Shown here piece after piece: positions 3,062 through 59,465 of a stretch of 64,000 nt of DNA. Position 1 is the stretch's first letter. Each line of letters opens with the position of its first letter. Under the pieces are notes generated by a model, which had not been told where the DNA came from, searched no databases, and was given only the letters and a program-made list of their open reading frames with translations. Location of the stretch: positions 28,804,798 to 28,868,797 of the forward strand of contig CM037862.1 in NCBI GenBank assembly GCA_021292105.1, given 5' to 3'. Made by a program: the position numbers and the translations under genes. This DNA comes from Anadara kagoshimensis (taxonomy: Eukaryota; Mollusca; Bivalvia; Arcoida; Arcidae).

Positions 3062-3572
3062 TGAATGCGCTTAGCGAAATTTTATGCTATTGATAACATC
3101 ATTGTAATGCGCTTAGCGAAATATTATGCTATTGATAACATCATTGTATTGCGCTTAGCGAAATTTTATGCTATTGATAACATCATTGTAATGCGCTTAG
3201 CGAAATGTTATGCTATTGATAACATCATTGTAATGCGCTTAGCGAAATATTATGCTATTGATAACATCATTAATTGTAATGCGTTTAGCGAAATGTTATG
3301 CTATTGATAACATCATTGTAATGCGCTTAGCGAAATGTTATGCTATTGATAACATCATTGTAATGCGCTTAGCGAAATGTTATGCTATTGATAACATCAT
3401 TGTAATGCGCTTAGCGAAATGTTATGCTATTGATAACATCATTGTAATGCGCTTAGCGAAATGTTATGCTATTGATAACATCATTGTAATGCGCTTAGCG
3501 AAATGTTATGCTTTTGATAACATCATTGTAATGCGCTTAGCGAAAGGTTATGCTTTTGATAACATCATTATA
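3062..3572 (+). repeat. 42-bp satellite array, 12 copies
   Basis: Twelve nearly identical 42-bp units (gcgcttagcg at about 3067, 3109, 3151, 3193, 3235, 3283, 3325 and so on), with one 6-bp insertion (taattg) after the fifth copy. Because 42 is a multiple of three the array reads as an open 14-residue repeat beginning MRLAKCYAIDNIIV, but this is a by-product of the unit length: no start context or flanking coding exon. Each unit holds an imperfect hairpin around gttat..ataac. It ends directly in a GA microsatellite. Confidence 0.9.
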
Positions 3573-3573
3573 G

Positions 3574-3574
<1 letters not shown>

Positions 3575-3624
<50 letters not shown>

Positions 3625-3626
3625 CT
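3575..3626. repeat. (GA)n microsatellite
   Basis: Uninterrupted GA dinucleotides with one AA interruption, directly following the 42-bp satellite. Confidence 0.95.
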
Positions 3627-4097
3627 GTCGGAGAGAGACTACCAACCTTACCACGTTCTCTTTATTTAATTTCTATTCAGGTGTTCTTGCCAAGTTTTTA
3701 TCATTCAACCTAACATAAAGTGAATCATTTACTTTTTACTTTATGACTCAGTGCGGAAATCTATAAAGTTTATTTCTCATCACCTTATAAAGATGTACTG
3801 TATGTTATTTATAAAAGAACAATTGTACGTAAAAGGTTACTTGTAAGTATATCACGACACAAACGCCGGGATATAACTATTTTTATTGCTATCAATTTTT
3901 AACTGAACTATCTTTTCATTAAAAGTCAAAAATAACACACGGCATGTTTGAATTTTAAATCCATGCGGCATAATTATTTGAATTTTATTTTTCATTGTTC
4001 ATAAAATTATTATTTTTTATATTTTCTTTTTAACATTATTGTTTTTATATTTTTATATTTTTCTTCGATTAAAAAAAGAAGATTATAAGAATCCATT

Positions 4098-4216
4098 ATG
4101 TGTATCCATGTAGGATAGGGACCCGAGGGGTTGAAATTTCTGTCAGAGACAAGGCTTGCCGAGTCTCTGATCAGAAATATTCAACCCCTCGGGTGAGATT
4201 TTCCTATTCTACATGA
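4098..4216. repeat. hairpin MITE (foldback)
   Basis: Two arms of roughly 45 bp are inverted copies of each other: the left contains catgtaggatag, cccgaggggttga and tcagagac; the right contains gtctctga, tcaacccctcggg and tattctacatg. No coding capacity; typical of a short foldback transposon relic. Confidence 0.75.
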
Positions 4217-4264
4217 ATAAACCTATAATGAATTATTTTTCTTTTTTTCTTTTTATTTAATGTC

Positions 4265-4445
4265 AATATGTGGATGAAACCGGAGTGTCCGGAGAACACC
4301 ACCGACTTTCTGCAAGTGAACTGACAAACTTCCTAACACTAGAATCTTCCCGGGTAAGATTTGAGGCTAGACAATGAGAGGTGATGTGATCTATAAGGGC
4401 GTGCCTTAGAATAATCAGTCAACGAGACCACCTGCTATATCGTTG
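4265..4445 (-). repeat. decayed SINE fragment (bivalve type)
   Basis: The order ccggagtgtccggagaacacc, ctttctgcaagtgaactgac, then a degraded B-box-like region matches the antisense of the SINE seen in sense at 5725 and in antisense at 7165 and 17470. The tRNA head is badly eroded. Confidence 0.45.
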
Positions 4446-8344: not shown

Positions 8345-11300
8345 TTATTTTTCATACACTACATCTCCCATTTTGATGACGTAATCAATTATGTTGTCAT
8401 GGCAACCTAGACGATATATAAGATGCTCCCATCTGCAAATAAACATGTTCACATACAATATCAATTTTTAAAAAAAACTTGAAACATCTAAGCTATAATT
8501 TGATCTAAAAAACTTTCTCACAGTTGGATATCTCCTTTGTTGTATTCGAATTTTAAAAAAAAACTTGAAATATCTAAGCTATAATTTGATTTAATTTTTT
8601 TTCTCACAGTTGGATATCTCCTTTGTTGTATTCGAACCTAGATGGTAAAAGTCACTGTGCTCTGTTAGCCCTATGGTTTTGACCACTCGGCCATCAATGT
8701 ACAATCTTTTTGCAAAAAAGTAAGACTTTTCTCAAGGTAATAACAAATTTACCAAAAGAGAAAATTAATCGAATTAAAAATAGCAGAAACTTCAAAATAA
8801 GCAGAAAGTGTGTTTAAAACCACCCACAGGTCCTTAAGAAATGTGGTCTTTATATATATTAATGATCTTCCTGTTTGCAAAATGAAACAAAGGGGGTTTA
8901 ATACATTGAACTTTTTATGTTTTAAGAGAAAGTTGCTACATACCTGTCGGCGTTTATGATGACCATATCAGCGTACTTTCCCTCAGTTAGTGATCCATAC
9001 CGATCCGATACGCCTAATGCAGCAGCCGAGTTCAAGGTCGCAGCAACCAATGCTTCTGCCATTGTCATACGCATAATTATACAAGCTAAATGCATAACCA
9101 AAGGCTGAAATACAGATATATATATATACAGGGCTGTTATTAATGGAAATGTTCAGGATAAAAAGATACCATTTATTTTAATTTATTTTATCACTGCAAA
9201 TATTTAAGAGTTGGATGGAAGAATGATATTTTTCGCAATGCACAATCGAAGCTCTTTCACTTATATCGAGGTAGTCTGTAGAAACCTTAGTACCAACTGT
9301 CTCACAATAGGATTTACCCGAGTGTGCTTTGAACTGAAGACATACTCCAACAACTTAGGGATTACAGTAAGATTCAAGCGAGTATAACTTTGATTCTGAT
9401 TAATTATGAAGTAATTGTGACCGTGTTGAACTTATTATATAAACATACTATTAGGTACAACTGTACTTAAAAACCACCATCCTTAACGTCGGTATTTCCA
9501 ACAAAAATTTCTGTTCTAAATGAAAATAACCCTTAGTTATATTAGGAGATATGGGTTTCTGAAAATCCCGATGGTCAAAGACAGGGCCGCAAGACTTACA
9601 ATAATACATTTTATATCATACCATTGATAAGCAATATGCGTTCGGGTTAAAATCTGAACCAAGTGCCACTGCCATTCCAGCATCAATCATTTTACGGACT
9701 GGTGGTGGTTTAAGTCTCAGTATGTACGCTGTGGTTGGCAGTACAACACCTATAGATCCTGACCTAGACATGGCTTGTATCCCGTCATCTGATATCTCTT
9801 CTAGGTGACTTATAGCTAAAGCTCCAAGTTCTGCTCCCATCTAAAATGAAATGAAACAAGTAATAAGTGAAATACGTGTCAGTACTACACGGTTGCCGGA
9901 ATTACTAAGATAAAGCCAAAACCGAGACAAATATGCACTACTTAAGTTAAAAATGGCTTGGCCGGAAACTAATTGCGATAAAAAATATTGTGCGACTAAA
10001 TTATCTAAACTACACATAGGTAAACGTATACGATATTTCAAAAAAAAGTTTCAAGGCCAGCATCATCTTACAATTTCATTTCCCTCAAACGTCCGTGTAA
10101 AAATTCTTTAATTTTGGTTGATTAATTCCCTTTTCTTCAAATGAATAAAATAAATCAAATAAATAAAATAAATTGATAACTATTTGACTCTCTTGAGATC
10201 AATTGCCTAAATACTTTTGTAACAATTAGTTTGAAGTAAGGGTAAATTGACCGATATTGAATCAAATGAACATGTCAAAGAGAGAGAGATAGAGAGAGAG
10301 CACCATAAAATCAGCATATTAAATATTTTCATTCTCTAAATAACAAAACACACAAAAAACGATTGTATTTGAATGTCTAGGTGTATATCTTAATGCAAAT
10401 ATTGATAAAGTCAACTAAGTATTAAACAAATAAAGCTTACTTTAGCACCATCGAGTGGATGAAGCTCATCACCATGGAAATTTATGTTTAACCCAGCATC
10501 TTTTCCTGCTTGAAGAATTTTTCTTGATTGCTCCACATTAAAGACACCCTCTTCACAAAATACATCAATATTTTCAACTTGTAATTCACCCTTGTCCATC
10601 AATTTTCGAATTTGTGGTATCTGGTTTTGTATGACGTCATTAGTTGCCTCCTCGGATGACTTGCCTCTAAATTCAATTTAGAAAAAAAAGTTTGATTTAG
10701 TTTTAAAATTGTGTACATTGACTAGAAAATGACAAAACAGCTACATGTATGCCTAATTCGATATCGGTCCAAATCTGAATGTCTAGTGATCAGTGATTGG
10801 TTTCTATATGCCTTTCTCAAGTGCTATGCAATATTGGATTTGCGTTGACAATTATCGATTTGACCGATGTTTTTTCGTAAGTGGCAAGGCAATTTTTTCG
10901 TAAGCGACAGATTGCTCCAGAAGAACATGCCGTGACGTACTAAGATATAAAAGCAATCAAGTTGCCCGAGGATTTTTCCAATACGGTTTTTGGTTTTAAT
11001 TATTTGTTGTATTGGTATTATTTGTTGGAAGTTCATTTCTTGACGGTTGGTGGTGGGTGTAGCTGGCTAAACAGGGGAACCAAAGGTCACTTTAATGGGG
11101 AGTTCACGTGTTTGACAGAAGTTGTCAGTTTTTCAATTACGTGTACATGTTGCTTTTTGGATTGTGCTTTTAACATGGGCCGGTATGTTTGTGTTTGCCA
11201 TTTAGGTAAACTATATAAAAAAATAACAAAAAATTTCCTATAACTTGCAAATGTTTTTAGGTATTTCTAATTCAATTGTTTTGTTTTGGTTGATATTGTG

Positions 11301-14190
11301 AGTAGAATTCAACTGTTGTTTTAAACAGACGTGTGTACTTCGATTTCAATTACGAAACATACATGTAATATTAAGTAATCAAAAACAAACATACTAATCC
11401 ATGTCCGATCGCGAATCACAATCCAGAAGCAAAGTAAAAACTTTGGAATTGACAAGTTAGGTTAGACACGTGAACTTCCACCAGGGAAGTGAGGCCAGGT
11501 GCTCCGGAAGGGTAAGCACCTCCTCCTGTTTAGCTAGCTACACCCGCCACGTGTGTGATCAAAATTGTGTAAAAGGAACATGGTTATTTGGACGTCGAAT
11601 CTATCCAGGGCAATCCTGGACACAGAGACATCAAACTTATCAACAATACTGTGATGATAGCCATGATAAGTAACAAATTAAATTATAACTTACTTGGGTA
11701 CGGCGTGTGCTCCACAGTATGTAGACGATATACCTATTTGAACATTGTTTCTAGCTTTATGGATAACATTCAACATTTTGATCTCATTTTCTGCGTCCAA
11801 TCCGTACCCACTTTTACACTCAACAAACGTTGTTCCACATTTCTGCATACTCTTCAGGCGTTTTGTTAACGATGTCAACAGTTCCTCCTCTGAAGCTTTC
11901 CTGGTATGTTCCACGGTGTAATGTATTCCACCTCCGGCTTTATGTACCTCCATGTAAGTAGCCCCAGCTAACTAAATGTATGAAAAGAAAGTAGCTAACT
12001 AAATGTAATCAGCATAACATAAAGGGCAGAAGAAATTTGAAAGACATAATGCGACATTGGCTGATACTGTTACAACATAATGACCACCAACAACAGAAAA
12101 GTATCAGTTCATTCAAATTGTTAGTAAAATTAAATTCGGGTCAATAAATGTAATTTTTTGGTTTTGAAATCGAAAACCTATCATACTTTAATAATATTTT
12201 AGAATCTTACCTTCATTGCAAATTCATGAACTCTGTCTCCGGCCCAAACTGGATGTGTATGAGAGTCAACGAAGCCTGCAATGATCGACATTTCATTACG
12301 TAAATTAATTATATAATTCCCCACAGCATTATTAATACTATTACAATGCACATAATAAGCTTCATATACAATTTTAAAAATGGCATATGAAGCTGGGCAA
12401 CATTTTATCAAAATACGTATTTAATACATTTAGATATGATTACATATTATACCAGTGTTAATTTTACAGCATTAGACGACCGTTTCGGGACGCAATTCCT
12501 AATCGTGATCAGTAGTGCTTGGACCAAAGTTGTGATATCAAAATTTTTCAAGGGGGTTGAAAAATATCTTGATGACCAAAATACATAGAACCAAATTTAG
12601 CTAAGGGAATACTTTGCATGAGAGAGTATACCTTAGTTTTTGAGGATTTCCATGTTTGACTAACAGCATTAATTTATATTTTAGACAATAGTATATTTCT
12701 GACAATATACAAAAGTATTTCATACTAAATTTATGATATCCTCGGGGAAACATTTTGTGGAATTTTCCATCAAATGGTTCCAAATGTAAGGATCATTGGT
12801 TTATTGTTTGGTAAAATAAGTGTTATTGTATAATTTAAATGTACGTATTTATGTGTCATTGGTTATAACATAAGTTAGGTGGTTGGGACCTTTCAAAAAA
12901 CCGTCAAAATCGAAGGCAATTGATTTTCAAGAAAAATAACTTTGTGAATATATCACTTTGAAGTATTGTAAAACTTGAATACTTAAATGAAATGTGACAT
13001 GAAGATCATACTATAAACCTTTGCCAAATATAAATGTTTACAGTTATTTATAAATGATATCTTTGATTATCCAATTATTTTAATTAGCAAATCAACGAAG
13101 ATTTATACCTGGTACTACACATTTTCCGGAAGCATTTATCACTTTCTCCGCCACTACTTCTCTATAAGTCTTCTCCAAGTCGCTGTCGTGTCCAATATAT
13201 TCTATCATTCCATTTCTGTAAATATAAAAATGTATAACAATATTCATTGGATATCAGAGAATTCGAGAATAAATACGTTTTCGGCAAAGGTTTGTAGTGA
13301 TGGAATGATTGATTGAATGAAGTTTAAGGTCCCATTCAAGAATATTTAACTTTTTACGTTGGAAGTGCGCTCTGGGCAATATATGTTCAATGGGGATTCA
13401 CTAGCTAGCCTACTACGTCTGCCGTCGCAAGGGATAACGGTTTTTAAGGTCTCTTCCGAAGGACCCCGTGTGACTTTCATTCCTGAATGCCATAGGATTG
13501 GCAAAAACAGTCACTACCTATTTTCAAGTCTTGGCCATTCCACGCCAAAGGTCAGGGATCGAACACACGGCATTACATACACGAATCGAACACTCTACCA
13601 ACTGAGTTACATTGTGGTCCTAGTTTTACCTGAGATTATCAAGCTACACCATACAAGACACTATTAAAATGTTTGTGATTTGTGCAGTAGAAATATACAA
13701 CTAATGTTTGGATGCATGTATTTAGAATTTCTTTTTTAAAAGAAATTAATTACTTATTTAAACATGTAGAACTTTTAAATATCTATCAGTAAAATTTTAA
13801 TTTACTTTGTTTAAAGAAGATTGTAGCATTACAGATGTCACTTTCAGGACTAGCCATTGTCGACTTTTTTGACAATAAGGTCTACAATGTAGATTTAAAT
13901 GGTGCACCGAGTATTTACAGGCTGCAGTGTAAATGCCATATATGATCAAATTTTAAGAAACAAACAAACTGTCTGATGGCCACAATGTAATCTATTTAGT
14001 TCGATCAAACACATACCTTCATGAATATTCATAAATACCTGTTTACAAGAATGCTGATTCCTTCCGGATCTTTCCCGTCCAACGTCTGCACCGTTTGCAT
14101 TTCTTTCCCGCGTAAAACTGAGATTTTAGCATCTCTTCGAATCAGAACGACCTGCTTCGCGGATTTAATGAAAAGCTTGAATTTTACCAT
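8345..14190 (-). CDS. AMDHD1: imidazolonepropionase (AMDHD1), complete, 8 exons
   Basis: Hydrolyses 4-imidazolone-5-propionate to N-formimino-L-glutamate, the third step of histidine breakdown, in the cytosol. Coding exons on the minus strand: 14190-14039, 13215-13109, 12275-12211, 11971-11694, 10666-10441, 9840-9622, 9104-8944, 8432-8345. All junctions are GT..AG and all phases agree, giving 431 residues, close to the roughly 426 of vertebrate AMDHD1. Amidohydrolase features: HTHPVWAGDR with metal ligands His92 and His94, EVHKAGGGI substrate region, INFHGDELHP with His265, SHLEE with His288, and GSDFNPNAY with Asp339. The start at 14190 gives MVKFKLFIKSAKQVVLIRR, normal for the N-terminal beta domain. 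Introns hold SINEs, a G-family element (11375-11665) and a hammerhead-type element (12465-12765). No broken codon or missing catalytic residue was seen; the gene looks functional. Confidence 0.93.
8461..8637. repeat. tandem duplication, ~86-bp unit, in AMDHD1 last intron
   Basis: Two adjacent copies of a unit containing aacttgaaacatctaagct and cacagttggatatctccttt, differing at a few positions and in A/T run lengths. The second copy runs straight into the antisense SINE head at 8625-8705. Confidence 0.85.
8625..8705 (-). repeat. SINE head, antisense
   Basis: On the minus strand: gatggccgagtggtcaaaac (A box) followed by aggttcgaatac (B box). Only the tRNA-like head remains, inside the AMDHD1 last intron. 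Confidence 0.55.
11050..11205 (-). repeat. dispersed element family G, partial copy
   Basis: Contains gtgggtgtagctggctaaac, gagttcacgtgtttgac and ggattgtgcttt, the antisense of the family best preserved at 11375-11665 and 59945-60225. AMDHD1 intron 4. Confidence 0.6.
11375..11668 (+). repeat. dispersed element family G, near full length
   Basis: Order of landmarks: aatccatgtccga, ccagaagcaaagtaaaaact, gaacttccaccagggaagtg, ggtgctccggaagggtaagc, agctagctacacccgccacg, cagggcaatcctggacacag, catcaaacttatcaacaata. The same order recurs in at least ten other places here in either orientation. No coding capacity, no clear tRNA head; probably a non-autonomous DNA element or SINE-like sequence. Confidence 0.75.
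12465..12765 (-). repeat. hammerhead-bearing non-autonomous element, copy 1
   Basis: Shares about 300 bp with 32176-32445: agtagtgcttggaccaaa, ctttgcatgagaga, ccttagtttttgagga, gacaatagtatatttctgac and gatatcctcggg occur in the same order and spacing. On the minus strand the shared segment ends in a hammerhead-like module (12469-12518). Resembles terminal parts of Penelope-like elements or animal retrozymes, which are known to carry such ribozymes; that assignment is inference. Lies in AMDHD1 intron 2. Confidence 0.6.
12469..12518 (-). ncRNA. degenerate hammerhead ribozyme motif
   Basis: Minus strand: GCACTA, then a core broken by extra bases (CTGATCACGATTAGG in place of CTGATGAGG), then CCCGAAACGG, TCGTC, TAATGC. 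Stem I has one mismatch and the conserved CTGATGA box is interrupted, so cleavage activity is unlikely. It is the decayed sister of the motif at 32180-32223. Confidence 0.5.
13325..13625 (-). repeat. tRNA-derived SINE (family S2), antisense
   Basis: Shares cagggcaat or ctgggcaat, tttttaaggtctc, cgaaggacc, tttcattcctgaatg, ttcaagtcttgg and a tRNA-like end with the copy at 27745-27997. On the minus strand the head reads as an A box (taactcagttggtagagtg) and a B box (gttcgatccctgacc). AMDHD1 intron 1. Confidence 0.65.
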
Positions 14191-29404: not shown

Positions 29405-31820
29405 TGGGTAAATAGTCAATGCGATTCAAGTACATGTACACGTTTGAGATTTTGTCATTTCTACACTGCTTCATATATCAACTACGTGCATTCATTGGTT
29501 TTTAAAGAATAATAATTATGTTATACCAAAGTTTTAATTCTTTTACTAAATCAGTAAAACAATTATTTATTCTTATCCAGAAATAAAAATTGAGAATTAT
29601 GCCACCAACAATACAAAATTATACTAATAGCCAATTTCATATGTGTTGGCTAGCTATATAAGAGGTGCTTACCTTTCCGGAGCACCCGGTCTCACATCCT
29701 TAGTAGAAGTTCACATGTTTAATTTACATGTTTGACTAAATTTGTCCAGTTTCAATGTTTTTACTTTGAGTTTGAGTTGATTCGAACCTGACCTGGCGTG
29801 AGTTTTTTTTATCAACTTCTATGACTGTTATAAATAGTAATGCAAAAGTATTTCAAACCATATGTCCTTTTTGTGGTAAACTTGTTCTCCGGGTAAAAAT
29901 CCACGTATTTGACTAAATTTGTCCGTTTTCAATGCTTTTACTTTGATTTTGGTTTTGATTCGAACCTAAACTGGCCATGGTATGTGTTTTTATCAACTTC
30001 GATTATTGTTATAAATAGTCATGCCAAAGCATTTCAAACCATATGTCCTTTTTATGGTAAACTTGTTCTAACATAATATCAGAGAAAAAGCAAGAAATGT
30101 TTAGAAAAAGAGTTATAAAGGCTTGCCTTAAGACCCGCTGAAATATCCGAGTCCCAGGTGTATTCATCTTGGAATATGTTGGCATAAAAGTGGAAATTGT
30201 ATCGAGCTCCGCTAAATTTTGTTTTTATTTTTCCGTCGTTATTGAATGTATGGCATAGTCCCAGGGGCGTTATAACATTGGTAAACGCATTGTGACAGCT
30301 TGATATCTCATCCGTGTCAAAGAAACACAAGGGAAACATTTTCTCTTTCGTCATGGATGACTGGTACAAAGCATCTACCACCATGTCATCAAAATAACCA
30401 TTTAGCTTGTAATGAGGATCGGACCAGTTTATCTTTGGACCCATGTAATCAACTGGGCTTAATTGAAGAAAATAGTTAAAGAAATATTCATCGACGTGCA
30501 TCGTGCTTCTGTTTTTGCCGCACAGGTTACACACCGTGATTGCCGGAAACGGAAGTTCTTTGACAAAATTTATGTCAATGCTAGACATTGTGGGATAGCT
30601 GTAATAATTTTTAAGTTCCTTAGTCAACGTAAATATCATATAACCAGCACTACACAAAACAATCAGCGTCCAAATCAATCTGAAATAGAATGTGACATGT
30701 GTAAGAAAAGAACAATTACCTTACAGTTCGGCCTAAATGTCAGAAGGTACAATTATCATACAGACTGAATGAAATATCCAAGCCAACAAGTACTTAAACT
30801 GGACAATTATCAATTTCATAAGCGTATCGCACGGATAAATTATGTTTTACGTCAGCGGCATACCCTTTTAGTGTCATACATAGAGGACCAGAACACTTAA
30901 TCAATGGGAATATGTTTATCGTTGGCGTTTTATTTGATGCCAGTTGAAACTTTTACAAATTATATGCATCCCTTAATGGAGTTGGAACCTTGTTGATGGA
31001 ATGGCTTTAAGCGCGCGCTTATGTATCAAAACGCCACTCATCGCGAATTCCATCCCGGACTGATCCAAATGTGAGACAGTTTGTTAGTTAACTTCCCAAA
31101 AATCGGCAGTTTATTCCGGGCACTCCGGTTTCCTGCAGTATCCATGAACTGACCATCTAGATATAAGTAAAAACCTTGATAGGACGTAAAACGTTTTCAC
31201 TCCGATTTCTATTTGGAACTTGCAAACTGCATAAATGCAAAGACAAAGTTATAAAACGGCTAAATCTAATTCCGATTATGTTAGATGTTTCAGCTTCAGA
31301 GTAAGACATATGGTAAATTTATTTAAAGATAAATGCCCCAATCCCAAACATTGTCGAGTTGGTTTTTTTTAAGATTGAACCTAAACTTGACCTACGTACC
31401 TAAATGCCGGTATGGCATGCGACACATTCCCATCTGTTGGTTTTTATTTTTTTTTACAAACGTTTGTGCTTAGTTTGATCAAAATCAATCTATGGACATG
31501 GAAGATATAGAGCGGATACAATATCTGTATGGACGGACAGACAGACGGCCAGCGATTCCTATATACACCCTCAACTTCGTTCGCAGGGGTGTACTAAAGA
31601 ACGCTTTTCACTTATTCACTCACCTTCTTCTGGTAGAACGAGAACCAGTCAGTTTGTTTATCCCATGAATGGTAGTCTCCTGGATAAATTCTGAACATAA
31701 TGACCGAACACCGGGTTCCGAATTAGACTTGCTCTTATCAGATTCTTTCTCCGTCGTAGGAAACCCCTTCTTGTCTTCATCATTGTACAAATCAAGGATG
31801 TTTCTATTGTAATTCTCCAT
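21116..31820 (-). CDS. DEG/ENaC/ASIC-family sodium channel subunit, complete, 7 exons
   Basis: Subunit of a trimeric, amiloride-type cation channel of the plasma membrane. Exons: 31820-31624, 30679-30127, 26735-26637, 25303-25141, 23339-23165, 22366-22272, 21279-21116; phases agree throughout, giving 481 residues, at the short end for the family. Visible hallmarks: cytoplasmic gating motif TTIHG (His52-Gly53); first membrane segment about 67-85; PFPAITVCN at 109-117; FQDEYTWDSDISAGLK joined to IVVHDPGEYPDV; LPYPYKAFGEEYC; Cys-rich domain with NCIHSC and KCDCKRPCDFSTY; GGQMGVFLGAS with the selectivity-filter GAS at 439-441, then the second membrane segment and a short tail ending KVVHVKTGK. 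Introns are GT..AG except the second, which appears to use a GC donor (AAG then GCAAGC). The ligand (protons, peptide or other) cannot be told. Intron 5 carries a transposon exactly at its donor; intron 4 starts with a minisatellite. Confidence 0.92.
21440..21546. repeat. fragment of CTGTAGATCACTT-type MITE
   Basis: Contains ttcgcgtgagatttgaattg and gcgaaataaagtgatctaca, matching the interior and right end of the MITE at 20453-20684. Within the last channel-gene intron. Confidence 0.5.
22851..23159. mobile_element. 309-bp inverted-repeat element in channel intron 5
   Basis: Left end cagggatttatcaagggcc, right end (inverted) matches, reading cctgataaatccctg. It is flanked by the perfect 5-bp direct repeat TATAC (22846-22850 and 23160-23164). 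Interior is non-coding, with repeated ttcccaat stretches. Immediately right of it is the 3' edge of DEG/ENaC exon 5 (23165), so the duplicated bases are the first five bases of the intron. Confidence 0.85.
24595..24790 (+). repeat. SINE, sense copy
   Basis: Head with A box (tatgatggtcgagtggttaa) and a degraded B box (gcccgagttttgtattcc), then ttagttcgattggggtcttt and gttcagattcctccaca. Same family as 5725-5862. Channel intron 4. Confidence 0.5.
24822..25165. repeat. degenerate minisatellite overlapping a splice donor
   Basis: Five or six diverged units about 55-60 bp long share acgatgtcacacttacc or acggtggcacacttatc followed by act..gtactc and cgcaactcgg. The last unit contains the DEG/ENaC exon 4 donor (GTAAGTGTGACATCGTA on the minus strand, at 25140), so the array looks like copies of the exon-intron boundary spread into the intron. 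Confidence 0.65.
25462..26109. mobile_element. DNA transposon family B, copy B1 (648 bp, non-autonomous)
   Basis: Ends TGTAACGCCACAAAGCGGTG and (reversed) TGTTACGCCACATAGCGGTG; terminal inverted repeats extend about 80 bp. A perfect 6-bp target duplication AGGCTT flanks it (25456-25461 and 26110-26115). The interior is rich in gacgatg-type repeats and has no transposase. Channel intron 3. Second copy at 35725-36389. Confidence 0.85.
26788..27105 (-). repeat. tRNA-derived SINE, antisense
   Basis: On the minus strand: gaccgcggtggtctaatgga (A box region) and tagttcgagtcccgctcgg (B box), followed by a body ending in an unrelated tail near 26790. The anticodon region is recognisably tRNA-sized, so the head is fairly well preserved. 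Channel intron 2. Confidence 0.65.
27745..27997 (-). repeat. tRNA-derived SINE (family S2), antisense
   Basis: Minus strand head: ggtagctcagtggtggagtg (A box) and gtgggttcgaaccccggctg (B box), both close to canonical. The body shares ttcaagtcttgg, tttcatttctaaatg, cgaaggacc and tttttaaggtctc-like blocks with 13325-13625, then ccagctataggtgaagtg. Channel intron 2. Confidence 0.75.
28593..28905. repeat. diverged direct duplication, ~190-bp spacing
   Basis: Two segments share gggcgag, cttcccgtttgacatcgga, gttccgacatct-like and gcaagaacagcgagggaa blocks (28593-28713 and 28779-28905). Channel intron 2; origin unknown. Confidence 0.6.
29353..29401. repeat. (GA)n microsatellite
   Basis: GA dinucleotide run in channel intron 2. 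Confidence 0.95.
29640..29775 (-). repeat. dispersed element family G, partial copy
   Basis: Contains gaggtgcttacctttccgga, gcacccggtctcac and gtagaagttcacatgttt, antisense to the family consensus. Confidence 0.6.
29735..30070. repeat. tandem duplication, ~180-bp unit
   Basis: Two adjacent copies share tttgactaaatttgtcc, tttcaatg, gattcgaacct, tcaacttc, ttataaatagt and accatatgtcctttt, ending 60 bp before the end of channel exon 2. The first copy begins inside the G-family fragment. Confidence 0.75.
31370..31605 (-). repeat. dispersed family C (tacccc..gtccgtctgtc), antisense
   Basis: Contains gtatggcatgcgacacattc, ggacatggaagatatagagc, tggacggacagacagacgg and ctatatacacc, the antisense of the copies at 34755 and 38827. 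In channel intron 1, just downstream of exon 1. Confidence 0.6.
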
Positions 31821-32179: not shown

Positions 32180-32445
32180 GCACTAGACGGCCGTTTCGAA
32201 ACATAATTCCTCATCAGTAGTGCTTGGACCAAAATTATGAAACTTTTTTGCCAAGATGTTGAAAAGAAACCCAAAGGACAAAAATATATTTTACCAAATT
32301 CGGCTAAGGAAATTCTTTGCATGAGAGATTTTACCTTAGTTTTTGAGGAATTTCAAATTTTAACTATAGCAGCAAATTTAGACAATAGTATATTTCTGAC
32401 AATAATACACAAATATTGCCTACTGCGTTTGTGATATCCTCGGGA
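32176..32445 (-). repeat. hammerhead-bearing non-autonomous element, copy 2
   Basis: Shares its whole length with 12465-12765 (same landmark order). On the minus strand the element starts near gatatcctcggg and ends in an apparently intact hammerhead. No reverse transcriptase is present, so it is non-autonomous or a truncated end of a Penelope-like element. It lies 360 bp upstream of the channel gene's start codon. Confidence 0.65.
32180..32223 (-). ncRNA. minimal type I hammerhead ribozyme motif
   Basis: 44 nt on the minus strand. Stem I: GCACTA pairs perfectly with the closing TAGTGC. Core box CTGATGA is intact. Stem II: GGAA with TTTC across the loop TTATG. Then GAAA and the very short palindromic stem III ACGG/CCGT, followed by the cleavage triplet GTC directly before stem I's second strand. 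All catalytic-core positions of the hammerhead consensus are present. Stem III without a loop is the form known from Penelope-like elements and retrozymes, thought to act as dimers. Cleavage would fall after GTC, near 32186. Confidence 0.8.
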
Positions 32446-33314
32446 CACCAGCCACAAGCAGAGATCAGACATCACTAAATTTATAATTAAATATAGCAAA
32501 AACTTCAATATTGCAGTTCTATGGCAAATACATGTTTAAATTCGTACAGTTATTTATGGATGGCAGTTTATGTATAATGTTCCAAAGTTATGATATGTTT
32601 CTGTGAATAAAACGAACATTGTTAGTAATTATCAAAATTGATCCTAATGCTTCTATAATAGAAATGCATCGTTTTAAAAGTGCATTTTCACATTTTTAAC
32701 GTTATACAGAAAACATTTAAATTTATGGATTTTATAGGTGGTATGTTTTGACAAACCTTCAAATATTTTAAATGATTATTTCACTAATCATAGAAATTGT
32801 CTGTACCATTGTCATTTTTCAAAAACAATACATATTTTTCATTCAGCTGAATAGTTTATTAATTATATAGTAAAACATCAATTTCCTTTCATATATATAA
32901 AGTGCCTACCAGAAAATCCAATATGTCAAGTAGATGCAGAAGTGTTTTGTTAATTTTTTGTAAAGCTATTATTCTACCCGAATGTAAATATTTATAAACT
33001 TTTTTAATTATTAAGCAAAGTTTATTTTCCAATTTCGTGTAAAATACGTTATTATTCTTATGATCGATTTGATCAACGTGAAAAAATAAATGTCACCTAT
33101 ATACATTTATTGAAACTGATTCTGTTTGTCTAAGGCTGAAAGTAACTATTTTTGCATTATTTGTCAAACCTTATAACAATATGATTTCATCGAAAAATTC
33201 ATAATTAAATTAAGATTTCTTCACTCAATTTTTGTTGAAGAAAAAATGATTGTGGTTGTGATGGGGACACGTTACAGATCAAGTTTAAATTTTTTTATGG
33301 TTTCATTTAAAAAC
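32446..33314. other. intergenic, nothing recognised
   Basis: Very AT-rich DNA; no exon, RNA gene or clear mobile element. Confidence 0.5.
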
Positions 33315-33490
33315 AAACCTACTTATCCATGTACGAATCAAAGTTCAGAAACTTTGAAACTGACAAATCAGGTAAACATGTGAACTTTCACCAGAGAAGT
33401 GAGGCCGGGTGCTCAGGCAGGGTAAGTACCTCTTGTTAAGCTAGCTACATCCGCCACGTGTAATCAAAATTGGATGAAAGGAATTTTCAG
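33315..33490 (+). repeat. dispersed element family G copy
   Basis: Contains tatccatgtacgaatcaaag, gtgaactttcaccagagaag, ggtgctcaggcagggtaag and agctagctacatccgccacg in consensus order. Confidence 0.7.
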
Positions 33491-44680: not shown

Positions 44681-45256
44681 ATACGAATCTAATGCATTTA
44701 CGGTCTAAATATATATATTTATATATAAGAACAATAAGCATTATATGCCAGATGGTTACGACCCTGCAGACATGCTACCTAGCCAACGAATTATGTTTTG
44801 TCGTGAGACAGAAAGTTTTAATTTTATCATCAATGATCGAAGTAATCATTAACAGGTTATCAAGTGTCATCTTTTCATTCGTTGTATTCTGTCATGAAAT
44901 GTTCGTTGTTGCTTTGCTTATTCACAGGAGTAAAACCCAGATATCACAATTTTGACCATTCTTTTCATGAAGTTAAGCTCCAAACAATATTCCATTTGTT
45001 ACTATGAAATCAGTAATTTTCGTTCTGTTCAATTTTTCGTATTTTGTTTGTAAATATCCTGACTCACGAATATAAACGTCCACCAAATAGTATAAAAGTA
45101 TATTACTAACTTATTAAAAAGACACCAAATACCATAATAGTATTGTTTTAAAGAAACATAAAAATTGGACACCACAAAAACCAACGATTTCACTGTTACT
45201 TACTAATTCTGGTTAACTTACCGTATTAATTCTGAATATATTTTCAGATCTGAATC

Positions 45257-47816
45257 ATGACTGAATTACAAGCATTGTTGGTCGTATTCGTTCTGCTGGT
45301 AACTTCAATGCATGGTAAATACATTAGTCACAAAACACAACTTGGTACCGCCATAGGCACAGAAGAAATATTTATGAATGAAACAGTGTATGTCTTTAAG
45401 AGAATTCCGTATGCTGAGCCGCCCATTGGTGAATTGAGATTCCAAAAACCCAAACCTGTAAACTGGTGGAATGAAACTTTGGATGGCACGAGGTATGGTC
45501 CGTCTTGCTGGCAACTCATGAGAAAGGAGAACATGTTTGTCTTACCAAATCAAAATATGTCAGAAGATTGTTTACATCTAAATGTGTTTATTCCGAGAGA
45601 AATTTCTACATCTCGCCCTAAGGCAGTCATGATTTGGATTCATGGGGGAAGCTTCACGATTGGTCAGGGAATGTTGTATGATGGGAAGACTCTGGCTCTT
45701 CATGGTGACGTCATCGTTGTTACCATCAATTACCGGCTTAACGTGTTTGGGTTTTTCAGTTTAGCAGACGATGTAGCACGTGGTAATTTTGGAATCTTGG
45801 ACCAAAGAGAGGCTATAATTTGGGTTAAAAATAACATTGTTGATTATGGAGGGGATCCTAATAAAATAACATTATTTGGTAACTCAGCGGGCGGGGTCAG
45901 TGTTAGTTTACATGCAGCAATTCCTAAAAATCAAGGACTGTTTCAGAGAGCAATTCAACAAAGTGGAACTTTTCTAGGTCCAAAAGATTTCAAAGTTGAA
46001 TCCGTTAGCAGTTCCATGATTATTAGCAGACTCCTTTCCTGTCCAACAGGTGTTAAATCAGCCTTGATCAAATGTGTTCGAAATGCCAGAGCAGAAGATC
46101 TTTTCAAAGCATATTTGGCGTTCTCAAAAATGGTGAAGCCTTTCGCAATGAGGATTCCACTTGGGCCTATACCAGACGGTGATCTGATCCCGTACGACAT
46201 TAGGAACTTGGTGACTGACCCAAGATCACCATCTGTTAAAATGTTCAAAAGCCTCGATTACATGGCAGGAAATACGGATGGCGAGGCTGGATTATTTTTA
46301 TTCGGTTTATTTAATTTCCAAAAGTCATTCAAGTTTAATGTTTTTAAAGGAATCCCAACCAGGGTATTGTGTGGGGATATAGTACCGGCAATTGCAAAAG
46401 AATTGTATCAAAACTGTACAAATGTTTTAAACTCTATCTGCCTGAAATATTCTCCAGCGGACGACAGGAACGTCAGTTTACAAACTCAGACAGACTTTAG
46501 TGCTAATATGTATGGAGATTTTATAAAGGTGAGCCCTACTGTAAGAATGCTGAATCATCATTCTAAATACAGCAACAAAGCGACTTACCAATACATGTTT
46601 ACTTATAAACCGAATAAAGGCGCCATGACACCTAGACCAACGTGGTTAAAGGGAGCTAACCACGTAGATGAAGTCCCATTTATTTTTGGTATTAAACCTT
46701 GGTATGGTAGCAACGTCACTGTAGCAAATGAAGAGGTTGATTTGTCATCAAGAATCATGACTTATTGGTCAAACTTCGCAAAATATGGGTAAGGTAATAT
46801 TACAAATATTATTTCAACAACACCATCTGTATACATTGAACCGTATCAAATGCAAGTACACGGCAATGTTGATCCATATATGGCGTCTGTTATACACGGA
46901 AAATGTGGAAACTTTTGATAAATGCCATTAAGATATAACTTGCATCATGTGAAATAGATATATTACGAAATAATGTTTCCAACATGTTTTCTATACTACT
47001 GATATAAAACGCGGATTCATTTCGCTTTACATTTATAAACTTCTACCAGGAAAGTGAGACAGAGCGCTTCTAAAGGGTATAGAATGCACTAATACGAGAC
47101 ACATTTATATTGCATAGTAAACGACAAGATGAACATCTCCAATAAAAAAGCAGATGGTAGCCGTTTTGAAATTTTTAGTGCGTTTTGTTTCTGCATTCAA
47201 ATAATTTTCAGAAACTTTCACACTGTTTAAAGCTGTTTTCATAGTAAGATATATACCTGGAATTAAAAGGGATCCGCGTGGAAAAGGAACGGTGGTTTAG
47301 CAAGTATTAAAAATAATAGAGAACACATATTTTTCTCAAGATTTCCAAAATAATCATTGAAATGTGTTGATCAAAACAACAGCAACATCAATAACAACAA
47401 CACACGAGACACACGATGTCACAAACACCACCAACTATTATTATTATTATTATTATCATCATCATCATCCTTATTATTATCATTGTCATATACTAATTTT
47501 TAATGTATTTTATGATTAAATTTCGAAAAATGGTATATGACATTATTCTTCTTCTTATTATTATTATAGAAATCCTAATGGTAATGGAATGGATATATGG
47601 AAGCCATATGATATGGAAACTATGAAGTATATAAACTTTTCCGCCATCGACGTTGTGCAAGATCATCTCTGGAAAGACCGGATGGATTTCTGGACGACAC
47701 GTGTCCCGAATATTTACCGAGATTGTTTGTCAATGAGAGTATCAGCTGGCGTAAAGCACCAGTACTCATTATATCTGTTTATACTTTCTATATTCATAAC
47801 TAGATCTATATTGTAA
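45257..47816 (+). CDS. type B carboxylesterase, secreted or membrane-tethered, 2 exons
   Basis: Alpha/beta hydrolase of the carboxylesterase/cholinesterase family, expected to cleave carboxylic esters outside the cell or in the secretory pathway. Exon 1 45257-46788 (donor GTAAGG) joins exon 2 47570-47816 (acceptor TTATAG) in phase, giving 592 residues. Residues 1-20 form a signal peptide. Family landmarks: IPYAEPPIGELRF at 50-62, SEDCLHLNVF at 102-111, oxyanion-hole HGG at 129-131, catalytic Ser210 in GNSAGG (usual form GESAGG), acid Glu343 in NTDGEAG, His469 in GANHVDEVPFIFG. Exon 2 adds a Trp-rich end (WTTRVPNIYRDC) and a hydrophobic C-terminus (SLYLFILSIFI) that could be a membrane anchor or GPI signal. 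An acceptor (ATTTTCAG) lies 10 bases before the ATG, so a 5' UTR exon probably exists upstream. Substrate unknown; the triad is intact. Confidence 0.92.
47035..47115 (+). repeat. dispersed element family G fragment
   Basis: aacttctaccaggaaagtga and gagcgcttctaaagggtata match the middle of the family. It lies in the carboxylesterase intron. Confidence 0.4.
47430..47500. repeat. (ATT)n/(ATC)n low-complexity tract
   Basis: Mixed ATT and ATC trinucleotides in the carboxylesterase intron. Confidence 0.8.
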
Positions 47817-51810: not shown

Positions 51811-51849
51811 CTGAAGTATAAAGAACAAACAAATTTATGTAGTATAATA

Positions 51850-51985
51850 AATAACAAACATACTAATCCATGTCCGAATCACTATCCACAAGCAAAGTAA
51901 CTTTGGAACTGACAAGTCAGATCAGGTAAGCCAAGTAAGCTTCCACCAGGGAAGTGAGGCCGGGTGCTCCGGAAGGGTAAGATTA
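51850..51985 (+). repeat. dispersed element family G copy, 3'-truncated
   Basis: Contains aatccatgtccgaatcacta, agcttccaccagggaagtga and gggtgctccggaagggtaag, stopping abruptly after the last block. Confidence 0.65.
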
Positions 51986-57099: not shown

Positions 57100-59465
57100 A
57101 ACATCATAATAATAATAATAGTAATAATAAATAACAATAATAACAACAATAACAATAATAATATTATTAAGTGGGGATAGGACATTGGTTCTTAGTCCCA
57201 GGCTGTAATAAGATACTTTGATAACTTAACTAACAATGAATGGAATTGCTGTTCACTATAGCATTAAATTTGTGTAGGGTTGGCAAATGGTTATAGTATG
57301 GTGGTAGAAGCTTAAGTCAAGCCTGTCTGTAAATTGGACATATTAATAAAAATGGTATTCATCTTCTACAACACCCATTGAACAACATGTACATAACTGT
57401 TGGTTTCTAGGAATATTTGTATATAGACCTGTAACTACATTTAACTGAAGTGAATTACATCTAATTTTGATAACATATATACATATTTAATATTTACACA
57501 ATTTAAATAACATTCAAACTGTACACAACATTTGAAACCTTTATATAAAATAAGTTTACTAGATGTATTTATGTAGTTAAACCAATGCTGCATAGACGGG
57601 TCATACAATCTTTGTTTAACTATCTCAAAATTAATAAGGCTAGCATTCTGCGAATACCAGTAGTCAGAAAAACCAAGATACGTAAATTGGAGACCCAGTT
57701 TACGTTACCGTTATTGGCATCTGTAAGTAACAAATTGTATATACATGTATTTGATAACATATTATCATTGTTCTGTAAAACTTTTAACCAATATTTAATT
57801 ATATGCTCTTGGCGTTTGGCATCTGTAAGTAACAAATGTATATATTTGATAACATATTATCATTGTTCTGTAAAACATTTAACCAATATTTAATTATACG
57901 CTTTTGGCGTTTGATATTGAGCGGTACCCTGCCTAACTCGCCAAGCAATACATTAATAGGTGTGGATTTATTAACATTTAAGACATACATGCAGATTTAT
58001 TGTGCACATTTTCAATGTCGATAGCTTTATGGAAGCCCCATACTTCACTTCCATAACACAAAACAGACGCAACTATTGAATCAAAAATATATCATCGTTG
58101 TTTAATATGTAGTGGAAGATTCCTGCAAATACTCATCAAGCTGTACAATGCGTTAGATCCTTGTTCCGATATACGTTTTTGAGTCTGGAGAAATTTGCCA
58201 TTTTTGTGTAAAGTAATTCCAAAATATGCATACGAGTCCACAATTTCTATAGTTTGGTCCCCATAAGTCCAGTTATAACTGTATTTACGCGTTCCATTTC
58301 TAAAGGCAACTACCTTGGTTTTGTTTATGTTAACAGTAATGTTTGTTGCAGTATATATACGTTTATCTAGTAACATTTGTAAAGTTTCTGGCGATTTTGC
58401 AAAGAGCACAGTATCATCTGCAAATAACAGAAGGCATATTATAAATCCATTGGATTGAAACAGGTCATTGCTATCTATATGCAAGTCTTTCGCGAGATCG
58501 TTTATGAAAAATAAGAACATCAATGGTGATAAAGGCTCACCCTGCTTTACGCCGATAGTGTTCTCAAAAACGCTGAATACTGACCATTTGATCTCACACA
58601 AAGATTTGATTTAACCACATTGATTATTTGGGAACTACATCCACTTTGAATTAATTTAAACCATAAAAGTCTTCTATCCACGATATCAAATGCCCGTTTA
58701 AAATCTACGAATCCACAATACAGTTTTCTTTGTTTTGTAGAACATGTGTAATGATGCCATGCAGCACGAAAATTGCATCCACGGTTGATTTACCACTTCT
58801 AAATCCAAACTGACTGTCACACAGTCTGTTATTTGATTCTGCCCACAAAAAGAGTCTGTTATTAATAAGAGAAGTGTATATTTTTGAAAACACACTAACT
58901 AGAGTTATGAGTCTATAATTGTTTGGATCATTTGGATCACCCTTCTTTGGCAAAGGAACTACGACACCATTCGTCCAAGCGTCAGGAAATTCACATTTTA
59001 AGAACATATAGTTAAATAGTTTACACAAAATTAGAAGTAGTAACCCGGCTGCTGTAATAAACATTTCATTTATAAGTTTATCTAGTCCTTTACTTTTTCA
59101 TCTTTTCAATTTATTAATTATTTCTAAAATTTCCGTCTCTGTAAAAGGTGAATCGAGTTCCTCTATTACAATATCATCATATGGCTGGTTTAAATAGTCA
59201 ACGAGTTGTTCATTAAATTCAGATTGCTTGTCGCCTAGAAGTTAATTGAACATTTTATGGAAATCGTCAAGGTTCACTGGACACTTCCTGTTCGATTTAG
59301 GCCTCAGAGTTTGCCCAAACTTCCGCGGGTTCCACTTCGACACCTCACTTAACTGTTTACATTTATTATTCATATGTCGGAACTTTGCTGACCGTTTTTT
59401 CCTATTATAATAATTATGCGCACTGATGGATATAGGCCTATTAGTGTCGGTAGGATTCCTATATT
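57100..59465 (-). mobile_element. decayed non-LTR retrotransposon (LINE), copy 2 (5'-truncated)
   Basis: Same family as copy 1, here with the reverse transcriptase. Minus strand: linker (59460-59100: KWNPRKFGQTLRPKSNRKCP), fingers/palm (59064-58705: KKGDPNDPNNYR, FSKIYTSLINNRLF, DSQFGFRSGKST), then 58601-58092 with GVKQGEPLSPLMF and the catalytic FADDTVLFAKS, followed by YFGITLHKNGKF and a C-terminal part with VLLGELGRVPL. Frames are broken in several places. The endonuclease and ORF1 are absent. The 3' end runs into an (AAT)n tract at 57106-57170, like copy 1. Both copies point the same way. Confidence 0.88.
57716..57915. repeat. tandem duplication, ~105 bp, within LINE copy 2
   Basis: Two adjacent copies contain ggcatctgtaagtaacaaat, tttgataacatattatcatt, gttctgtaaaac and aaccaatatttaattata; the first has a longer tgtatatacatgta stretch. 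It duplicates the code for IIKYWLNVLQNNDNMLSN. Confidence 0.85.

Follow-up and report, generated by a model that had tools for sequence, protein, structure and literature searches.

A decaying hammerhead copy in Anadara kagoshimensis belongs to a large retrozyme family whose insertion ends hint at spread from RNA circles

A minimal hammerhead motif lies in a 64,000-nt stretch of the Anadara kagoshimensis genome (contig CM037862.1), which was analysed as a whole and is called the window below. The locus raises two questions: what kind of element the motif belongs to, and whether it does anything where it now stands. Minimal type I hammerheads are known from Penelope-like elements and Terminons, for which cleavage as dimers has been proposed (PMC7761336). 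Animal non-LTR retrozymes also carry type I hammerheads, in tandem repeats of 150-450 bp with low GC content and with circular RNAs (PMC7229834). A sequence-only reading of the window had named both kinds of element as possible homes. Our account of the locus rests on the following features:

32224-32179, minus strand: minimal type I hammerhead ribozyme (sequence descriptor and Rfam alignment)
32465-32147, minus strand: single-unit, truncated copy of a 339-nt retrozyme repeat (unit 56 to 339, then 1 to 40)
12752-12439, minus strand: second, older copy of the 339-nt repeat (identity to the reference unit about 77%)
12468..12519, minus strand: hammerhead remnant in the second repeat copy
30079..30720, minus strand: DEG/ENaC channel frame, downstream of the element and outside it (Pfam ASC, E 3.8e-24)

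The sequence-only reading gave the position and strand of the motif correctly, and all of the elements it described are present on the minus strand. The core letters are complete, with CTGATGA, GAA and a loopless palindromic stem III (ACGGCCGT); C17 is at 32186 and cleavage is predicted between 32186 and 32185. The stem lengths had to be revised: stem I is 7 bp (AGCACTA/TAGTGCT, 32224-32179) rather than 6, and stem II keeps the 5 pairs of the family, two of them as G-U, rather than having 4. A CUGANGA/GAA core, three stems and an H17 other than G, the features that define membership among hammerheads, are thus all found in the window motif. As a chance control for the hammerhead descriptor, we used 150 dinucleotide shuffles of the window. 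The descriptor has a single match in the real window; the shuffled windows yielded 0 matches at stems of at least 6/4/4 bp, 1 at 5/4/3 and 10 at 4/3/2.

Covariance-model evidence is consistent with this assignment at a low score. Rfam Hammerhead_1 (RF00163) aligns end to end with the motif in a 63-nt query (model positions 1 to 45, 28.0 bits, E 1e-5), and core and stem III are identical in kind, the Rfam consensus itself having a loopless ACGcgCGU; the gathering score, however, is 34 bits. The match surfaces only with the short query. At the gathering score Rfam has no match in the whole window, and a 1-kb query returned 8 matches up to E 10, with no hammerhead among them. A family copy from elsewhere in the genome (L021) scores 28.1 bits, also under the cut-off. 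The sequence-only reading had held that the lack of any hit above threshold would speak against a hammerhead. Formally, that is the result we obtained, yet it is outweighed because the consensus has the identical loopless stem III and the family core is present in thousands of copies. A whole-genome search with RF00163, in which 73 of 112,716 candidates were scored, gave 0 matches at E <= 0.001; it is uninformative, since 14 control genomes likewise gave 0. Four hammerhead patterns scanned against IMG/VR had 0 matches each. A loose hammerhead pattern was seen in 17 prokaryote contigs (L083-L099), five of them in Caballeronia or Burkholderia.

The motif has a very large number of relatives in the host genome, which was searched over 1.115 Gb in 36 contigs. 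With the window element as query, 43 matches came from 40 scored of 5435 first-look candidates, and the descriptor recognised at least one hammerhead, with matching stems, in each of 22 of the 30 loci fetched from this search. The family hammerhead core is present with up to 2 mismatches at 10,421 genome places (5282 + 5139), against 0 for a reversed-pattern control. A stricter core is found at 4,239 places (2173 and 2066); here CTGATGAG, the closing letter of stem II, GAA, stem III and C17 are exact and the remainder of stem II is free. In its family form, stem II (GGAAT-TGT-ATTCC) has 5 bp capped by a loop of 3 nt.

Some of these hammerheads are arranged in tandem. In L005, L010, L021 and L025 they follow one another head to tail at spacings of 338-340 nt, and L031-L034 are one array of 1697 nt with five units. 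The first 100 exact cores on contig C1 represent 89 loci, of which 83 have one hammerhead and 6 have at least two; neighbouring spacings in the multi-core loci of this contig also include 325, 341-344 and 357 nt and about two units. Tandem units of about 339 nt, two to five in some loci, lie within the retrozyme size range of 150-450 bp, and the GC content of the majority unit (34%) is below the 50% taken as a retrozyme limit. Single or partial units make up most of the sampled insertions, the window copy among them. In a unit of 339 nt there is scarcely space for coding sequence, an LTR, a primer binding site or a polypurine tract, features that metazoan non-LTR retrozymes lack. A search of the circular unit's ribozyme strand by strict consensus for Pol III A and B boxes, which would mark a tRNA-derived SINE, gave no match. 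The 46-nt hammerhead has a divergence of 3.3% versus 6.0%, the fifth lowest of 254 overlapping windows (28 rows). The window hammerhead is part of a family of metazoan non-LTR retrozymes with about ten thousand motifs in this genome.

Pairs of loci with a common insertion and similar flanks were also seen (L001/L002, L013/L014 in the near flanks, L042/L044 and L045/L047), and we read them as segmental duplications. For L001/L002, the best match of the window element besides itself lies on the same contig, 0.8 Mb off, with 95.5% identity over the whole 3.3 kb, a segmental duplication.

The copy at 32465-32147 carries one hammerhead and has diverged by 12.5% from the reference unit. Within the 46 nt of its hammerhead there are 3 changes, all in stem II and its loop, where 5.75 would be expected at the divergence of the copy (binomial 0.157). 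This number is within expectation for its age, and the window copy therefore shows no sign of selection. Since it has a single hammerhead, we infer that it would be unable to free a unit by itself. In the older copy, the CTGATGA core of the remnant at 12468..12519 has a 6-nt insertion and one changed letter, and one pair of stem I is gone. The window copy is an old, decaying, single-hammerhead relic and an ordinary member of its family.

Folding separates the family from the window copy. The lowest-energy homodimer of the family sequence is a double hammerhead (-34.5 kcal/mol), and the best fold of the family monomer is not a hammerhead. The earlier view, in which the motif is a minimal hammerhead of type I like those of animal retrozymes, with a stem III palindrome suited to dimers, agrees with this. 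For the window copy the same check came out differently: an alternative dimer (-32.7) is more stable than its double hammerhead (-29.3). Compared with 60 shuffles, the circular unit shows no excess of predicted structure (z -0.56). From these predicted folds, family hammerheads probably act in pairs through the palindromic stem III. Hammerheads of newt satellite and axolotl retrozymes, which we liken to the present family by description and which come from another animal group, also have a weak stem III and are better as dimers (PMC7229834; PMC6155905). The supposition that the window copy itself is active, or gives circular RNA, finds no support: it has one hammerhead, it is 12.5% diverged, and the double-hammerhead fold is no longer its lowest.

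Several other features of the window were observed. Between 225 and 969 an 80-nt unit recurs in tandem, and its copies include tRNA-like A-box and B-box strings (GTGTCCGAGTGG, GTTCGAATCC); ARAGORN (bacterial code) calls no tRNA in this interval. Twelve repeats of a 42-nt unit (95% match) occupy 3064-3569, and a 156-aa open frame overlapping them has no Pfam match over the cut-off. An interspersed repeat of about 290 bp is found at nine places in the window including the query, 72-91% alike.

11376-11664, 60229-59949, 44651-44416, 51845-51981, 33309-33483 and others: places of the repeat of about 290 bp
58095-58610, minus strand: reverse transcriptase fragment (Pfam RVT_1, E 6.1e-11)
45254-46792, plus strand: carboxylesterase-like 512-aa open frame (Pfam COesterase, E 1e-118)

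The ends of the insertions bear on how the family spread. Segments of 80 loci were aligned to the repeated unit, and 97 segments were reduced to 69 distinct insertions by dropping 6 rows close to the end of a locus, 13 whose flanks resembled those of another row (one insertion fetched twice, or duplicated loci) and 9 with less than 85% identity or less than 80 nt. L001-L030 had been chosen by likeness to a 321-nt window piece, which biases them toward lengths near 320, and L031-L080 for having an exact core of the hammerhead on C1. In 62 of the 69 insertions the 3' end falls at unit positions 30-44 (20 at 38, 16 at 40), about 38 nt past the cleavage site. The 5' ends are uniform round the unit (KS p = 0.48, n = 69); 4 of 69 fall at the cleavage site (positions 330-339 or 1-8), where 3.7 are expected. 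Lengths range from 91 to 1697 nt. The C1 sample taken alone has the usual 3' end in 35 of 40 insertions, a KS p of 0.25 and 10 insertions that exceed one unit. Conservation of letters drops sharply to background after about unit position 37, and a weak A/T preference is seen beyond it. Another apparent 3' end is found in 7 of the 69, although three of these (L025, L065, L078) seem to retain the usual tail behind an indel.

A constant 3' end together with spread 5' ends, some of them past a full turn, indicates that copying has a single starting place but no fixed stopping place. Because the copies run through the cleavage site, where a linear hammerhead product would end, the template was uncut or had been reclosed. 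Other hallmarks of insertion are sparse. No A-tail was seen at the insertion ends, and target-site duplications of at least 12 nt in the near window occur in 2 of 69 insertions (L017 and L037, the latter inside a tandem repeat); in wide windows they number 4 of 67 and 3 of 67, versus 0.3-0.4% in controls. Such a scarcity of target-site duplications is unusual for target-primed insertion; in metazoan non-LTR retrozymes these duplications, where they occur, exceed 4 bp.

Within arrays, successive turns resemble each other more than they resemble other insertions. Eighteen insertions have turns that overlap by 60 nt or more; in these, identity is 97.6% between successive turns versus 93.3% between insertions, and non-consensus letters are common to successive turns in 218 of 343 cases versus 282 of 3060 between insertions. 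This signal rests mainly on four arrays (L032, L021, L005, L025), and L011 (0/2), L027 (0/7) and L070 (0/8) have no shared non-consensus letters. The letters common to successive turns imply either a single template sequence for each array or later homogenisation. One template sequence per array is the simpler reading and, with the ribozyme of the family, points to circles. The ends and the shared letters together suggest that the family spread from RNA circles.

The closest described counterpart is the retrozyme of the mussel Mytilus galloprovincialis, which has about 5000 copies, repeats of 350-390 bp and slow cleavage (PMC7229834). Both families have a type I hammerhead, repeated units of similar size (about 339 nt here), low GC content and thousands of copies, the mussel figure having been counted by another method. 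RNA circles have been demonstrated in the mussel; the Anadara family is described here from its genomic copies. We found no published account of a 339-nt retrozyme family among the literature matches listed. The pairing of a fixed 3' end with uniform 5' ends was not met in the text of PMC7229834 available to us, in which the string 'truncat' is absent. Among the matches listed, PMC10886601 is the only text to contain both 'retrozyme' and 'target-primed reverse transcription'; in its available part, retrozymes come up in a remark on non-autonomous LTR elements and in a reference.

The mussel repeats may also be related to the Anadara unit by descent. Presumed mussel repeat letters can be aligned with almost all of the unit (64% over 354 columns, E 3e-26). 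At 102 bits, against 22.6 for the best of 30 shuffles, the alignment with these presumed mussel letters also covers unit positions missing from the window copy. A presumed mussel hammerhead pattern has 0 matches in this genome at up to 3 mismatches. Possible homology with the mussel repeats is a lead.

Penelope-like elements are present in the genome as well. A GIY-YIG search, with 150 of 248 candidates scored, gave 50 matches, two of which (L081 and L082) were examined. L081 has a 576-aa frame in which Pfam recognises GIY-YIG only, and L082 a 762-aa frame; we read both frames as putative reverse transcriptases. Direct repeats of about 800 bp (877-1635 and 3558-4364, 80% alike) flank the GIY-YIG frame of L081, which by its layout appears to be a Penelope-like element with pseudo-LTRs. 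No hammerhead was found in L081, either by descriptor or among Rfam matches up to E 10. L082 carries a candidate:

L082 1435-1388, minus strand (the strand of the frame, 79 nt past its end): minimal hammerhead candidate (descriptor)

This motif has a 6-bp stem I, CTGAAGA, a 4-bp stem II behind one mismatched pair, GAA, the palindrome AGTACT and A as H17. The descriptor used for it tolerates one mismatched first pair in stem II and was defined after the match had been seen; it has 0 matches in 400 shuffles of either stretch (L081 or L082). A 71-nt query gave an Rfam hammerhead match of 15.2 bits (E 0.2), under the cut-off, and Rfam on the 5-kb L082 stretch did not list the hammerhead. Both kinds of hammerhead element occur in this genome, as they do in other animals (Cervera & de la Pena 2020, PMC7229834), and the window motif is of the retrozyme kind.

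Could the window motif nonetheless be the pseudo-LTR hammerhead of a Penelope-like element? Such hammerheads share the minimal type I form (PMC7761336), candidate elements are at hand in this genome, and the L082 motif has a palindromic stem III. However, the window motif sits in a tandemly occurring 339-nt repeat with no sequence similarity to L081 or L082, the L082 hammerhead differs in its stems and core letters, and L081 has none by the same descriptor. No element encoding a reverse transcriptase and GIY-YIG surrounds the window motif, as judged by comparison with 2 of the 50 GIY-YIG places. We regard this origin as quite improbable; of the two homes proposed at the outset, the retrozyme was borne out by the 339-nt tandem repeat, and the Penelope-like element, having no sequence in common with the repeat in either locus, was not. 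That the motif is a chance look-alike is a vanishingly small prospect. The sub-threshold Rfam score would allow it, as would the loosest descriptor setting, which matches about once per 15 shuffled windows, but no shuffle matched at 6/4/4 bp, the core recurs at more than ten thousand places and the stems match in most fetched loci; the existence of the family rules it out. A different objection concerns the template rather than the motif. An uncleaved linear multimer, with the hammerhead a passenger and reverse transcription from a fixed internal site, is also expected to give a fixed 3' end, random 5' ends and lengths that may exceed one unit, and homogenisation within arrays could account for the shared letters. 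Yet few stretches of the unit are as well conserved as the hammerhead, and RNA blots show the mussel retrozymes to be circular (PMC7229834). Moreover, 83 of the 89 C1 loci have a single exact core, so multimeric transcripts would have to come from few loci. A linear template is therefore unlikely.

The neighbouring gene invites one further reading, in which the window copy has been co-opted by a DEG/ENaC gene for self-cleavage in its 5' region. The copy is on the same strand, its core is intact and a possible start codon follows 360 nt downstream. The sequence-only reading had taken this ATG (at 31820) as the start of the channel gene; Pfam ASC confirms the channel frame on the same strand, but the putative first exon has no Pfam match, and the start codon is thus unproven. 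The deficit of changes in the hammerhead is not clearly below chance, and stem II is different in the duplicated locus L002, so we consider co-option very improbable. Nearness to the gene is no more than expected of a family with two copies in the window, and a role of the window copy for the DEG/ENaC gene has no support.

We therefore return to spread through RNA circles. Going by family resemblance and folding, arrays of about 339-nt units would be transcribed, hammerheads probably paired through the palindromic stem III would cut the transcript into units, and the cut units would be closed into circles. A reverse transcriptase from another element, possibly Penelope-like, would then copy the circle, beginning about 38 nt past the cleavage site and continuing for a fraction of a turn up to five turns. 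New copies would thus share their 3' end and differ freely at the 5' end, as we observe; fixed-start reverse transcription on circular RNA predicts such ends, with variable length. The window copy would be one such insertion of less than one turn, now decaying. We consider it likely that this retrozyme family spread by fixed-start reverse transcription round an RNA circle and that the window copy is a decaying relic of that process. We also lean toward a more specific view of the insertion ends, namely that they reflect a closed, religated template and not a linear ribozyme product, with a borrowed reverse transcriptase that starts about 38 nt past the cut, stops anywhere and leaves neither an A-tail nor regular target duplications.

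It has been proposed that retrozyme circles are copied by the reverse transcriptase of another element, with Penelope-like elements as strong candidates (PMC7229834). In the available text of that study, re-entry of the circle into the genome is only a model (Cervera & de la Pena 2020, PMC7229834). Because the Anadara family has about 10,000 hammerheads, and because its 3' ends converge on one dominant position while its 5' ends are random, the re-entry step can be measured through end counts. Unit positions 36-40 give a defined place to seek the primer or the partner element, and this genome holds at least one apparent Penelope-like element with a minimal hammerhead, the type of partner proposed in PMC7229834.
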